NCBI RefSeq assembly: GCF_011326735.1
Contig: NZ_JAANCN010000001.1
Span: 1 to 64,000, forward strand
Reading direction: 5' to 3'
DNA from: Phycicoccus endophyticus
GTDB taxonomy: Bacteria > Actinomycetota > Actinomycetes > Actinomycetales > Dermatophilaceae
Length of the DNA: 64,000 nt
Shown: piece by piece, positions 4,560-16,128 of the stretch
Layout of the letters: each line of letters opens with the position of its first letter
Numbering within the stretch: the stretch's first letter is position 1
Program-made: the position numbers and the translations under genes
Notes under the pieces: model-generated
The model's database searches: none
The model's input: the letters and a program-made list of their open reading frames with translations, nothing else
Told to the model about the DNA's origin: nothing

Positions 4560-5321
4560 ATGGCGCGGCTCGCCGTCGACGACGCCGCGTGGGCCAGCCG
4601 ATGGCGCTCGCGCAGCACCGAGGAGAAGGCACTGCTCGCCCTCGGGCTGCTCCTGATCGCGGTGACGACCGGCTCGGCGCCGGTCGTCACCGCGGTGGCG
4701 CTGCTCGCCGTCGGCTGTGCGCTCGCCGGCGCCCGGGTGCCGTGGCGCACGTACCTGCGGGTGCTCCTCGCCCCGGCCGCCTTCGTCCTCCTCGGGGCCG
4801 CGAGCGTCGCGGTGACCGTCGGCGACGGCTCGACCGGCGCCGTGTGGTCCGCCGGCCCGGTCGCGGTGACCGACGAGACGCTGGGGCGCGCGCTGCACGT
4901 GCTCGGGCGCTCGCTCGCGGCGACCTCGGCGATGGCGCTGCTCGCGACGACGACCCCGGTGGTCGACCTCGTCGCGGGGCTGCGTCGCCTGCGGGTGCCG
5001 GACGCGGTCGTCGACGTCGCCGAGCTGACCTACCGGATGCTCTTCCTCCTGCTCGACACGGCGGCGACGGTGCGCGAGGCGCAGGCGGCCCGGCTCGGCT
5101 ACTCCGGGGGGCCCGCCGCCCGGCGCTCCCTCGGGATGCTCGGGTCGGTCGTCCTCGTCCGCGCGGCGGGGCGGGCGAGACGGCTGGAGGCCGGGCTCGC
5201 CGGTCGTGGCTCGAGCGGGACGCTGCGCACCCTCGCCCCGGCGCGGCCGGTGTCGTGGACGTTCGTCACGCTCTCGGTGACCGTGCTGGCCGCGCTCGCC
5301 GCCTGGTCGGTGACCGGGTGA
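4560..5321 (+). CDS. cbiQ: Cobalt ECF transporter transmembrane (T) component CbiQ
   Basis: A 253-residue multi-spanning protein; the start [11 protein letters not shown] is 1 nt after the cbiN stop. The C-terminal cytoplasmic part carries ECF T-component coupling helices, including EAQAARLGY and [13 protein letters not shown] (Ala-Arg-Gly-type signatures) that contact the ATPase. It couples CbiO hydrolysis to CbiM movement. It overlaps cbiO by 4 nt (GTGA). Confidence 0.93.
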
Positions 5322-6169
5322 CCCACCGGCTGACCCGGCACGAGCCCCCGGCGGTGCCCGCGGTGCTCGCGGCCGCCGGGGTGCACGCGGGCTACCCCGG
5401 CGGGCCGGACGTCCTCGACTGCGTGTCGCTCGAGGTCGCGCGGGGGAGGCGGGTCGCGCTGCTCGGGGCCAACGGGTCGGGTAAGACGACGCTGCTGCGC
5501 TGCCTCTCGGGGGCCCACCGTCCCGGCGCCGGCGAGGTCCTCGTCGACGGGCGCCCGCTGCGTCACCGGTCGGGCGCGCTGGGGGAGCACCGCCAGCGCG
5601 TCCAGCTCGTCCTGCAGGACCCGGACGACCAGCTGTTCTCCGCGGACGTGCGTCGCGACGTGTCCTTCGGCCCGGTCAACCTCGGGCTGCCCGACGCGCA
5701 GGTGCGTACCCGGGTCGAGGAGGCCCTCACCGCGCTCGGCGTCGCCCACCTCGCCGACCGGGCGGTGCACCAGCTCTCCTACGGGCAGCGCAAGCGGGTC
5801 GCCGTCGCCGGGGCGGTCGCGATGCGTCCGGAGGTCCTCCTCCTCGACGAGCCGACCGCCGGGCTCGACCCGCGCGGCGTGGGCGAGCTGCTGGCGGCCC
5901 TGGAGCGTCTCGAGGGGCTCGGCACGACGGTCGTCATGGCGACCCACGACGTCGACCTGGCGTGGTCGTGGGCGGACGAGGTGGCCGTCGTCGTCGACCG
6001 GGTCGTGCGCCAGGACGTCCTCGTCAAGGTGCTCACCGACACCGACCTGCTCCGGTCGGCCGGGCTCACCCCTCCGTGGCCGGTACGGCTGCTGCGAGCC
6101 CTGGGACGGGAGGTCGACGTCCTCGACCCACCCCGTACCGCCGCCGACGTGGCGGCCCTGCTCGCCTGA
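5318..6169 (+). CDS. cbiO: Cobalt ECF transporter ATPase CbiO
   Basis: A 283-residue ABC ATPase. The GTG start overlaps the cbiQ stop. Seen: Walker [11 protein letters not shown]-loop in LQDPDDQLF (the DPDDQ motif is typical of ECF ATPases), signature LSYGQRKR, Walker [13 protein letters not shown] and the H-switch in MATHD. It powers cobalt uptake, probably as a homodimer since only one ATPase gene is present. The gene ends 36 nt before the 42-bp palindrome array. Confidence 0.95.
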
Positions 6170-6205
6170 GCCGCCGCGGCCCCGGCCCCGGCACACCACA
6201 CCCGA

Positions 6206-6369
6206 CCGTCCTCCATTTGACCAATAGGTCACGTGAGGCACAGCCGACCGTCCCTGTCGTGACCAATAGGTCACCTCAGGCACAGTCGAGCGTTCCTGTC
6301 GTGACCAATAGGTCACCTCAGGCACAGTCGAGCGTTCCTGTCGTGACCTATTGGTCAAATGGAGGACGG
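6206..6369. repeat. 164-bp element: four 16-bp palindromes at exact 42-bp spacing within a perfect 27-bp inverted repeat
   Basis: The core palindrome GTGACCAATAGGTCAC, or its variant with a terminal TTGACC or the complementary TATT centre, occurs with TGACC...GGTCA at 6218-6231, 6260-6273, 6302-6315 and 6344-6357. Each copy is exactly 42 bp after the last, and the fourth has the opposite centre orientation. The outer copies sit in arms 6206-6232 and 6343-6369, which are perfect reverse complements over 27 bp. The three 26-bp spacers are related: the second and third are identical, the first differs at 5 positions. The element lies between convergent cbiO and cobIJ and includes the cobIJ stop codon. 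It could be a bidirectional terminator, a REP/MITE-like element or a multi-site operator; I cannot decide from sequence alone. Confidence 0.9.
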
Positions 6370-7950
6370 GGAGGTGGAGGGGAGCGGGCGGACGGAGCGG
6401 GGGGTCCAGACCCGGCCGGCCGGGGTGACCCGGGTGCGGGAGGCGCCGATGACGACGAGGCAGCGCATGTCGACCGTCTCCGGGTCGAGCGCGCCGACGG
6501 TGGTGACCCGCAGCTGCTCGCCCGCCCGCCCGACGTCCCGGGCGACGACGAGGACCCGGTCGGGCCCCACCACCTCGCGCACGGCCTCGAGCGCGGCGGC
6601 GAGCTGGCCCGGGCGCGAGCGCGAGCGCGGGTTGTACAGGGCCACGACGAGGTCGGCCCGCACGGCCGCGGTGAGCCGCTCGAGCAGCACCTCCCACGGC
6701 TTGAGCCGGTCCGAGAGCGAGATGAGCGCGTGGTCCGCCCCGAGCAGCGCGCCGGCGAGCGCCGCGGCGGCGTGCGCGGCGGTGACGCCGGGGACGACGT
6801 GGACCGGCACCGACCCGTAGCGCGGGTCCTCGGCGGCCTCGAAGACCGCGGCGGCCATCCCGAAGACCCCGGCGTCGCCGCCGGAGACGACGGCGACCTG
6901 CTCCCCGGCCAGTGCGAGCTCGAGAGCCTCACGGGCGCGCTCGACCTCGACGGTGTTGCCGCTGGCGTGCCGGGTCAGGCCCGCGCGCTGGGGAACCCGC
7001 GCGACGTAGGGCGCGTAGCCGACCACGTGTGCCACCGCGGCGAGCACCTCGCCGGCCTCCGGAGTCACCCACCGCTGCGGCCCCGGGCCGAGCCCGACGA
7101 CGTGGACCGTTCCGGTGGCGGAGACCTGGACGGAGGACGCGCAGCCTGCCGAGGGGGAGCCGTCCGGCGCCGTCGAGAGCGGGCCGTCGGCCGCCGCCCG
7201 CCCCGCGGCGTCGGCCCGCAGGTCGGCACCCGGGACGACGACGAGGGACATGTACGGGACGGTGCCCGGGTCGACCTCGGCGGCGGGCAGCACCCGCTGC
7301 CCCGGCGCGCTGGCCCGCTCGACGTACACCGCCTCCTCGAGCCGGCCGGCCTGGCGCAGCGCCTCGCGCACCGCGGCGAAGGTGCGGCCGAGCTTCATGA
7401 CGACGGCCGCGTCGGTGTCGGCCAGGCGCCGGGCGAGCTCGGGCACGGGGAGCGTGCCGGGGAGCACGGTGAGGGTGTCCTCGTGCCGGCTCAGGCCCGT
7501 CCCGGCGGCCGCGCTGGCCGCCGAGACCGACGTCACCCCGGGCACGACCTCGGTCGGGAACTCCTCGCGCAGGACGTCGTGGACGTACATGAACGAGCCG
7601 TAGAAGAGCGGGTCGCCCTCGGCGAGCACGACGACCGAGCGGCCGGCGGCCAGGTGGCCCCGCAGCCGGTGTGCGCACTCGAGGTAGAACTCGGCGAGCG
7701 CGCCGTAGTAGCCCCCGTCGTGGTCCGTGGTGCCCGTCGTCACCGGGTAGACGAGCTCCTCCTCGAGCACGTCGTCGCGCAGCTGCCCGGAGGCGATGGC
7801 CCGGGCCGTCGAGTCCCGGTGTGCCGCACGGTGGTAGGCGACGACGTCGGCGGAGGAGACGAGAGCGGCGGCCCGCAGCGTCATGAGGTCGGGGTCACCC
7901 GGCCCGACCCCGACCCCGTAGAGATGTCCCGGGAGTGCACCGCCGCTCAT
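6355..7950 (-). CDS. cobIJ: Bifunctional precorrin-2 C20-methyltransferase / precorrin-3B C17-methyltransferase CobIJ
   Basis: A 531-residue fusion of two tetrapyrrole methylases. The CobI half (residues about 1-245) starts MSGGALPGHLYGVGVGPGDPD and has LAEGDPLFYGSFMYV and VVPGVTSVSAASA. The CobJ half (about 265-531) has VHVVGLGPGPQRWVTPEA, VSGGDAGVFGMAAAV, VVPGVTAAHAAAA and ALYNPRSRSRPGQL. The first half methylates C20 of precorrin-2; the second does C17 methylation with ring contraction. It overlaps cobH by 4 nt. The last few codons and the TGA lie inside the right arm of the palindromic element, so the natural 3' end may have been replaced by that repeat. Confidence 0.95.
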   Translation of the reverse strand: MSGGALPGHLYGVGVGPGDPDLMTLRAAALVSSADVVAYHRAAHRDSTARAIASGQLRDDVLEEELVYPVTTGTTDHDGGYYGALAEFYLECAHRLRGHLAAGRSVVVLAEGDPLFYGSFMYVHDVLREEFPTEVVPGVTSVSAASAAAGTGLSRHEDTLTVLPGTLPVPELARRLADTDAAVVMKLGRTFAAVREALRQAGRLEEAVYVERASAPGQRVLPAAEVDPGTVPYMSLVVVPGADLRADAAGRAAADGPLSTAPDGSPSAGCASSVQVSATGTVHVVGLGPGPQRWVTPEAGEVLAAVAHVVGYAPYVARVPQRAGLTRHASGNTVEVERAREALELALAGEQVAVVSGGDAGVFGMAAAVFEAAEDPRYGSVPVHVVPGVTAAHAAAALAGALLGADHALISLSDRLKPWEVLLERLTAAVRADLVVALYNPRSRSRPGQLAAALEAVREVVGPDRVLVVARDVGRAGEQLRVTTVGALDPETVDMRCLVVIGASRTRVTPAGRVWTPRSVRPLPSTSPSSI

Positions 7951-9719: not shown

Positions 9720-9725
9720 AGCGTA
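9720..9725 (-). promoter_or_regulatory. -10 box of a likely leaderless cobG transcript
   Basis: On the minus strand this reads TACGCT and ends 7 nt before the cobG ATG. It faces the cobN promoter, 15 bp away. Confidence 0.6.
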
Positions 9726-9740
9726 CGCGCGCCCGCCGGG

Positions 9741-9746
9741 TAGGCT
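9741..9746 (+). promoter_or_regulatory. -10 box for the cobN riboswitch transcript
   Basis: TAGGCT just upstream of the riboswitch core; the expected start is near 9753. It is divergent from the cobG promoter. Confidence 0.55.
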
Positions 9747-9754
9747 GCGCGGGT

Positions 9755-9890
9755 CCGACGTCGGCGGAACCCGGTGCGAGTCCGGGACGGTCCCGCCACT
9801 GTGAGCCCCCGGACGGGGGTGAGTCAGGAACGCCGCCGCGGATGCCCGTGGCCGCGCCCCGGGCCCACGCCGACAAGGGGGCGAGGACAC
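9755..9890 (+). promoter_or_regulatory. Adenosylcobalamin riboswitch upstream of cobN
   Basis: The core AACCCGGTGCGAGTCCGG is followed by GTCCCGCCACTGTGAGC (B12 box GCCACTG at 9795-9801) and GAGTCAGGAACGCC. The leader then runs to GGAGGA before the cobN GTG. It should repress cobaltochelatase synthesis when adenosylcobalamin is abundant. Confidence 0.93.
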
Positions 9891-15344: not shown

Positions 15345-16128
15345 CCGCCCGCGCGTCGTCCTCGGGCAGGCTGAGGGCGTAGGTGTCCATGACCCAGCCG
15401 TGCCGGGCACGCAGGTCGAGGCGCAGCGCCACCAGCTCCTCGGCGAGGTCGGCCAGGCGCCCGGCCCTCAGCTCCTGCTGGGGCAGACCGAGGTAGGCGC
15501 CCCAGTGGACCACGAGGTCCGGTGCCCGCTCGAGCAGCTCCACGCAGCGCAGCCGGGCGTCGAGCATGACGACGACCGTGCCGAGGTCGGGGCGCCACTC
15601 CTGGAGGAGCCGCCGGCCGGTGGTGACGTGCACCGGGCCACCGATGCCGTTGAGGACGATGCCGTGCTCGGCCGCGAGCACCTGGAGCGCCGAGATGCCG
15701 GGCACGACGTGCACCGTCACCGGGGTCAGCCGTCCGACGGCCCGCACGATGCGGAGGGTGGAGTCGTAGAAGGCCGGGTCGCCCCAGACGAGGAAGCCGA
15801 CGACGGCGTCCTCGGGCAGGGCGTCGACCACCGCGGCGTACCGCCGGGCGCGCTCGGCGTGCCAGGCGTCGACGCCGGCCCGGTAGGCGGCCGCGTCCCG
15901 GCGGGCGTCCGGCCCACGCTCGGGGTCGGGAACGGTGACGACCCGGTAGGTCCCGGGCTCGAGCAGCGCCTCGCACAGCCCCCGGCGCACCGCGACGAGC
16001 TCGTCCTTGGCCTCGCCCTTGTCGGCGACGAGGAACACGTCGCACGAGGCCATCGCCGCGGCCGCCTGGGCGGTCACGTGCGCGGGGCTGCCCGGGCCGA
16101 TGCCGATGACCTGGACGGTGCGGCTCAT
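15325..16128 (-). CDS. cobF: Precorrin-6A synthase (deacetylating) CobF
   Basis: A 267-residue tetrapyrrole methylase starting MSRTVQVIGIGPGSPAHVT. It has VFLVADKGEAKDELVAVRR, WGDPAFYDSTLRI, VVPGISALQVLAAEHGI and GAYLGLPQQELRAG, which are characteristic of CobF. It methylates C1 of precorrin-5 and releases acetate, a step specific to the aerobic pathway. It overlaps the cobQ stop by 4 nt, so cobQ-cobF form a coupled pair convergent with bluB-cobT. Confidence 0.94.
   Translation of the reverse strand: MSRTVQVIGIGPGSPAHVTAQAAAAMASCDVFLVADKGEAKDELVAVRRGLCEALLEPGTYRVVTVPDPERGPDARRDAAAYRAGVDAWHAERARRYAAVVDALPEDAVVGFLVWGDPAFYDSTLRIVRAVGRLTPVTVHVVPGISALQVLAAEHGIVLNGIGGPVHVTTGRRLLQEWRPDLGTVVVMLDARLRCVELLERAPDLVVHWGAYLGLPQQELRAGRLADLAEELVALRLDLRARHGWVMDTYALSLPEDDARAVSGTRG

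Follow-up and report, generated by a model that had tools for sequence, protein, structure and literature searches.

Among the described systems of dispersed palindromic repeats, the closest is that of the repetitive extragenic palindromic (REP) units, which the REP-associated tyrosine transposase (RAYT) is thought to multiply and move. The element considered here is an array of four palindromes at positions 6206–6369 of the first 64,000 nucleotides of contig NZ_JAANCN010000001.1 of Phycicoccus endophyticus, a stretch called below the window. Palindromic repeats with no dedicated RAYT are described in the excerpted parts of Di Nocera 2013 (PMC3733652): these CGTC-tagged REPs and Rickettsia palindromic elements lie between convergent or co-directional genes, sometimes within genes, and the phyla listed there for the CGTC type exclude Actinobacteria, untagged REP-like sequences being mentioned in M. 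tuberculosis. AbiEi proteins bind inverted repeats, cooperatively in one species, according to an excerpt of PMC7319586. A search for open-licence PMC papers tying DUF559 or AbiEi-type nucleases to repeats found none. The Phycicoccus array is probably a non-autonomous copy of a dispersed family, whose 36-bp dyads would be the putative sites of an AbiEi-like/Vsr-like nuclease encoded elsewhere, in a REP–RAYT-like relationship. More generally, we lean towards the view that actinobacterial AbiEi-like/Vsr-like (DUF559) nucleases serve, as their enzymes, mobile palindromic repeats of a widespread and so far undescribed class, each nuclease having a private dyad that brackets its own gene, with phased arrays, co-evolution with recognition residues and decay upon nuclease loss.

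The pattern YGACCAATAGGTCR has 97 exact matches in the P. endophyticus genome (G000, 3.18 Mb), and its reversed control has none. In a wider set of 98 related genomes it is found in six, namely G000, an uncultured Phycicoccus (G011, 69 matches) and four others with 1, 1, 2 and 4 matches; the control has none in G011 and one match in each of two other genomes. Allowing up to one mismatch adds a single site in the retrieved G000 loci. Arrays of at least two sites number 25 in G000 and 26 in G011, and 8 of 23 G000 loci have G011 arrays or sites by the orthologous genes. The family therefore consists, like the REPs, of a short palindrome present in many scattered copies, most of them extragenic, and this recurrence refutes the possibility, raised in an earlier note on this DNA, of a local accident of tandem duplication. 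That note had taken the 16-bp palindrome as the unit. The palindrome is exact, but the conserved unit is a 36-bp dyad, YGTNCC..AATC-GACCAATAGGTC-ACG..GGTACR, in which the outer GT and the outer AC are each kept in 96 of the 97 sites, with no strong conservation beyond, the invariance of the core being set by the search pattern itself. Where an array has mixed orientations, all AATA centres precede all TATT centres (18 of 18 such arrays in G000, 15 of 17 in G011). Watson–Crick pairs at the variable arm positions do not exceed shuffled pairing (80 and 87 distinct units), the sole exception being the nearly invariant position -8:+8 in G011 (25 of 1000 shuffles). Since the arms do not covary, the unit looks like the double-stranded site of a symmetric protein and not like a hairpin, which agrees with the earlier idea of a multi-site target for a dimeric protein.

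Among the matches listed for the paired GACCNNNNGGTC in the 98 genomes, 74 fall in G000, 72 in G011 and 0–11 in the others (11 in G027). The arm pattern with any core gives 70 sites in G000, 56 in G011 and 0–4 in the other 96 genomes, so that no further subfamily emerges from this arm scan. Thirty-five pattern stretches were found in genomes, 28 of them actinobacterial (16 in G011, five in bin_340, three in Knoellia, three in Janibacter and one in a metagenome-assembled genome, MAG) and seven in other groups; six of these seven were viewed, and all six were rejected as being of different layout. In Acanthopleuribacter pedis (L079:2404-2568; L numbers denote separate retrieved loci, each with its own numbering), nine GACCAATAGGTC sites form mostly a tight 17-bp tandem array, apparently unrelated. 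Viral contigs gave 30 pattern stretches, and the two viewed (L091, L094) were unrelated repetitive sequence; an alignment scan of viral contigs gave three weak partial relatives.

The sites within arrays are helically phased. When spacings of up to 90 bp were pooled, with one value per spacing class per array (84 values, three data sets), R was 0.67 at 10.5 bp (Rayleigh p ~6e-17, best period 10.7), and periodicity near 10.5 bp is seen in each data set (R 0.81, 0.62 and 0.64). The same-face arrangement previously proposed for the window array thus extends to the family. The step of 42 bp fits that array but is not a general rule, the common G000 spacings being 42, 52–53 and 62–63 bp, that is 4, 5 and 6 turns; those of G011 are broader (41–45, 49–56 and 64 bp).

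A second core is carried by three sister species. Within the same-genus set of 12 genomes (G000–G011), GACGAATGTGTC has 16, 32 and 6 exact sites in G003, G005 and G008, and none in the other nine genomes; seven of the 12 have neither core. Units of this subfamily share their length and layout with core-1 units, their spacings are commonly 42, 52–54 and 63 bp, with a few at 78–99 bp, and some sit in the same protein linkers (hyuA and E2, described below). As a side observation, core-2 units recur every 81–99 bp at L183:1502-1790 (G008) and L193:1403-1830 (G003), where they appear to be read in frame as part of an acidic protein with repeats (DPWDDQP, by eye).

A look-up of linked proteins, which the earlier note had recommended, led to a nuclease gene with sites on both sides. 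It lies at a locus of the order accB-accE-X-MOSC-DUF885, where X is a protein of 308–310 residues whose gene stands between + sites and - sites in G000, G011 and MAG bin_340 (core 1) and in G003, G005 and G008 (core 2); in G000 the MOSC gene is inside the same bracket. X is bracketed in all six site-bearing genomes in which the locus was seen and absent in six of six site-free sisters (Fisher 0.001). The latter absence refers to 7-kb stretches of G001, G004, G006, G007, G009 and G010, which have neither core, G002 not being covered, and tblastn of the retrieved loci found X nowhere else at E<=1e-5. From its profile matches, X resembles an AbiEi-like region joined to a REase_MTES_1575/DUF559 (Vsr-like) nuclease: MTES_1575 (E 7e-9, 36.0 bits for a cut-off of 38.2), DUF559 (18.4 for 20.6), AbiEi_1 (18.4 for 22.2) and the PADLOC AbiEi profile (E 3e-8, no cut-off given). 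A fold search with the nuclease domain placed the catalytic domain of I-Bth0305I (3r3p) at rank 4, with an E of 0.24, a probability of 0.99 and a target template modelling (TM) score of 0.76. We take I-Bth0305I to be one of the free-standing EDxHD/Vsr-like homing endonucleases. An E-x-D...H pattern is conserved among 12 proteins, D233 and H237 being invariant and E231 nearly so.

According to the tree of the neighbouring genes, X was gained or lost at least three times, and a single clade of carriers is rejected (approximately unbiased test, p 2.6e-7): the carrier G005 pairs with the non-carrier G010 (100/99), and the grouping of G000 with G003 and G008 has a support of only 82/85. The nuclease tree, in contrast, divides by site core, with a Shimodaira–Hasegawa-like approximate likelihood ratio test (SH-aLRT) value of 97 for six rows. 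Six residue differences are fixed between core-1 and core-2 nucleases, four of them at 83, 92, 95 and 104; other 3:3 splits of the six nucleases give at most two. The sites also bracket further genes, which encode the MOSC protein, an AAA-domain protein (L026) and a small protein without clear family (L029), at loci L017, L082, L026 and L029, and arrays may tolerate or help gene gain.

Homologues of X, 25–37% identical where aligned, were found in Arthrobacter, Tsukamurella and Nonomuraea, in records of a plasmid collection, some of which are probably chromosome fragments. For six of the seven distant homologues examined, the nuclease gene lies between copies of its own repeat; there are three distinct flanking repeats in a single Tsukamurella genome, two in an Arthrobacter and one in a second Arthrobacter. 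In a comparison of upstream with downstream sequence (E<=1e-5), a shared repeat flanks 10 of 13 nuclease genes (six from related Dermatophilaceae and seven distant, the distant ones alone giving 6/7) versus 1 of 113 control genes taken from the window, sister genomes and nuclease loci (Fisher 1.6e-11). One gene, L263, seemed unflanked because the match was partial; retrieved anew as L267, it is flanked. The nuclease gene of a human-gut contig, examined after this test, is flanked as well (E 1e-10). A search of the plasmid collection (E<=0.1) with five flanking units, those of L265 and the gut contig being left out, gave 8, 20, 12, 42 and 12 places, none of them outside the species of the unit, although such counts may include one palindromic element on both strands. 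The Tsukamurella inverted half-units lie 43 bp apart, and the Arthrobacter units at spacings of 31, 31, 29 and 42 bp. Neighbours were looked up for 11 dispersed Tsukamurella copies, of which eight are in convergent gaps, three in co-directional gaps and none in divergent ones; one dispersed unit adjoins a gene annotated as the tyrosine recombinase XerC (L283:586-1482).

Array positions were tabulated for 41 clusters from G000 and 12 of the 25 retrieved G011 loci, in-gene arrays and one single site being included and split arrays counted twice. Thirteen are convergent, 24 co-directional and four divergent, versus 37, 143 and 62 among 242 background gaps drawn from the window, G006, G008 and G010 (convergent excess, p 0.013; divergent deficit, p 0.016); gene calls came from a purpose-written codon-usage script, with some strand assignments doubtful. 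Arrays favour gene ends and convergent gaps, but the earlier suggestion of an intergenic element needs correcting, since arrays also lie in frame inside hyuA (G000 and G011) and inside an E2 acyltransferase gene (G000). The latter array lengthens, by repeats such as VPESTNRSPEARGR, a linker that most sisters have in a short form, and in G011 three units occupy another E2 linker. Palindromic repeats have here plainly entered protein-coding linkers without a shift of frame. At the same linkers, decayed unit-like remnants scoring 0.1 to 7.1 bits are present in the E2 genes of G006, G007 and G010 and the hyuA genes of G006 and G007; intact units have a median of about 50 bits on this scale, and elsewhere the best score, over 13 stretches of 20 kb from G006 and G010, is -2.0 bits. 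No remnants were seen in E2 of G001, G002, G004 and G009 or in hyuA of G004, G009 and G010. Fossil units in nuclease-free sisters are consistent with loss and subsequent decay in part of the genus.

The phasing, the core conservation and the decay together imply some protein that needs the sites. The AbiEi-like nuclease is the best candidate because of its co-occurrence with them over several independent gains or losses, the flanking in distant genera and the tree that follows the core. Nuclease dimers would bind each dyad, with sites 4, 5 or 6 turns apart bound side by side on one face. If bound sites are then nicked or cut, and repaired either from another array or unequally within the same one, units would be added, moved and homogenised, as is supposed for RAYT but through an unrelated enzyme. 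Arrays would persist where they do little harm, at gene 3' ends, in convergent gaps and in protein linkers, and sites would decay once the nuclease is lost.

In this scheme we infer binding, cleavage, the copying mechanism and a selfish rather than a host function. Several points weigh against it. Arms and spacers vary from array to array, so the sites are not fresh copies, and recent copy-and-paste is not evident. Sites upstream of the nuclease gene could be plain operators. Its absence in sisters was judged only from the 7-kb stretches at the one accB-DUF885 locus, a neighbourhood itself rearranged in G001, G004 and G009. Some flanking sites of X are single or carry up to two mismatches (L082, L244, L242 and L247), and Knoellia locipacati, Janibacter HTCC2649 and the MAG L066, which have the same core, showed no nuclease in the short stretches retrieved, their whole genomes not being searched. 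All the Pfam scores of X are below the curated cut-offs. Its fold search gave nothing at E 0.001, with three mitoribosomal proteins (TM <=0.26) ranked above I-Bth0305I, and the model has a mean predicted local distance difference test (pLDDT) value of 65.5, with a poor N-terminal half. The conflict between the nuclease and locus trees lies partly on branches of 79–82% bootstrap. In the flank test, the Nonomuraea homologue (L268) has no flanking repeat and fails, L017 formally fails because the MOSC gene stands between nuclease and array, and one control passes (L221:14239-15504, E 7e-6). The 29-bp Arthrobacter spacing is off phase.

In the window, the array (6206..6369, strandless) contains four exact TGACCWATWGGTCA sites at 6218, 6260, 6302 and 6344, exactly 42 bp apart as first described, and the 64 kb also have one three-mismatch match; shuffled sequence gives a mean of 0.77 matches at up to three mismatches, and no shuffle reached five. 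Tandem Repeats Finder (TRF) reports a period of 42 with 3.3 copies (6218–6357), and overlapping direct copies recur at spacings of 42 and 42. The 36-bp units, with limits taken from the 97 units, are 6207..6242 (+, core 6219–6230, AATA, outer-type left arm), 6249..6284 (+, core 6261–6272, AATA), 6291..6326 (+, core 6303–6314, AATA) and 6333..6368 (-, core 6345–6356, reversed centre TATT, outer-type right arm). The 27-bp terminal inverted repeats, 6206..6232 (+) and 6343..6369 (-), are perfect reverse complements, so that both the reversed last centre and the outer repeat are as the earlier note had them, and so are the 26-bp spacers: the second and third are identical, and the first differs from them at 5/26 positions (by-eye count). 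A CRISPR array was rejected, as it had been by that note, on account of these identical or nearly identical spacers. The array occupies the interval between a rightward cobalt ABC transporter ATPase gene (cbiO-like, Pfam ABC_tran, 5318..6169, +), ending 49 bp before the first core, and a leftward, convergent tetrapyrrole methylase gene of the cobalamin pathway (cobIJ-like, two matched stretches of Pfam TP_methylase, 6355..7950, -), whose stop codon (6355–6357) falls within the last palindrome. The corresponding interval of G009 and G004 contains other genes, and there the methylase stop is at a different place. As to features of miniature inverted-repeat transposable elements (MITEs), the 27-bp inverted repeat is present and the two orthologous gaps are refilled; no target-site duplication is evident by eye, no systematic test having been made.

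Other explanations of the arrays were weighed against the nuclease-driven family. The AbiEi-type protein might be a DNA-binding regulator, with arrays acting as operators or road-block terminators for host benefit and the nuclease domain secondary. Inverted-repeat binding by AbiEi proteins, cooperative in one species (excerpt of PMC7319586), would suit such a regulon or insulator, as would the gene-end bias (13/41 convergent clusters versus 37/242, 4/41 divergent versus 62/242) and the constraint implied by helical phasing and by arms that diverge around a fixed core. Yet only 4/41 clusters are in divergent gaps, in-frame arrays lie within genes, where a road-block would harm, and 7/12 genus genomes have neither core; we regard this explanation as unlikely.

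A still smaller chance is given to an RNA element, in which each unit would be a hairpin serving as a (bidirectional) transcription terminator or mRNA stabiliser. Its gene-end position and palindromic form would fit, and ten Tsukamurella units fold to long hairpins (-27 to -48 kcal/mol), but the Phycicoccus arms have no compensatory change and helical spacing has no evident use in RNA. Nor is there a terminator-like site (GC-rich stem, then T tract) in 6100–6500, as the earlier note had said, or an Rfam match at gathering score in 5900–6700 (four matches at E<=1, the best at 47.9 bits for a cut-off of 230). Equally improbable are sites of a site-specific recombinase, pdif- or attC-like, with gene modules swapped between arrays and the nuclease as one passenger. 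Dyad arms around an asymmetric centre, the arrays that bracket a gene (nuclease, AAA-domain protein at L026, small protein at L029) and the Tsukamurella copy beside xerC speak for them; however, six Dermatophilaceae genomes and distant genera all have this one passenger family between repeats, and the repeats are different each time.

A separate dispersed hairpin family, CGAACGTGTGTGAA..TTCACACACGTTCG, with apparently compensatory stem changes, was seen in Phycicoccus species at L245:4130-4186, L232:8954-9003, L233:4403-4454 and 15430-15485, L237:19326-19379, L238:9199-9254 and 9725-9780, and L224:4446-4493. In G006 it occupies the gap that the nuclease and its sites take up in carriers. An inverted pair around AACACGCCG..CGGCGTGTT, which shares part of this hairpin family, lies at L234:9589-9640 and L239:11865-11925, at the locus of the G000 array L025.

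The nuclease-driven family, if correct, gives the DUF559/MTES_1575 proteins with an AbiEi-like region, whose role is unknown, a possible function, and suggests that enzymes other than RAYT, and unrelated to it, can sustain REP-like repeat systems. It also provides a candidate protein–DNA code, with two natural cores and nucleases distinguished by six fixed positions, of which four fall in a stretch of 22 residues.

Compared with the AbiEi antitoxins of type IV toxin–antitoxin systems, which bind inverted repeats (excerpt of PMC7319586), X has a similar AbiEi-like region but is fused to a nuclease domain, with no AbiEii toxin among the neighbours viewed and with sites dispersed over the genome. 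It shares with I-Bth0305I-type homing endonucleases the E-x-D...H pattern and a nuclease-domain fold match, weak by E-value; those enzymes have one homing target, whereas many dispersed array sites are found here. The CGTC-tagged REPs and Rickettsia elements, as presented in the excerpted parts of PMC3733652, resemble the Phycicoccus arrays in their gene-gap and in-gene positions and in having no dedicated RAYT; the CGTC-tagged ones differ by a one-sided tag, a stem and a tail, with no dedicated enzyme reported in those parts. A RAYT partner was rejected for the Phycicoccus arrays: the Y1 (HUH) transposase PF01797 is absent from the 12 same-genus genomes and from 24 others of the same family, and it occurs in 2 of the 58 genomes searched, neither in Dermatophilaceae. 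REP–RAYT is thus retained as a working analogy, membership failing on the enzyme and on hairpin covariation: the partner candidate here is Vsr-like, and the units are 36-bp dyads in helically phased arrays with no such covariation. The likeness to REP units, their paired forms (REPINs) and bacterial interspersed mosaic elements (BIMEs) lies in the short dispersed palindromic units, the inverted pairs, the gene-end and convergent positions, the lineage-specific variants and a nuclease gene flanked by the same units.
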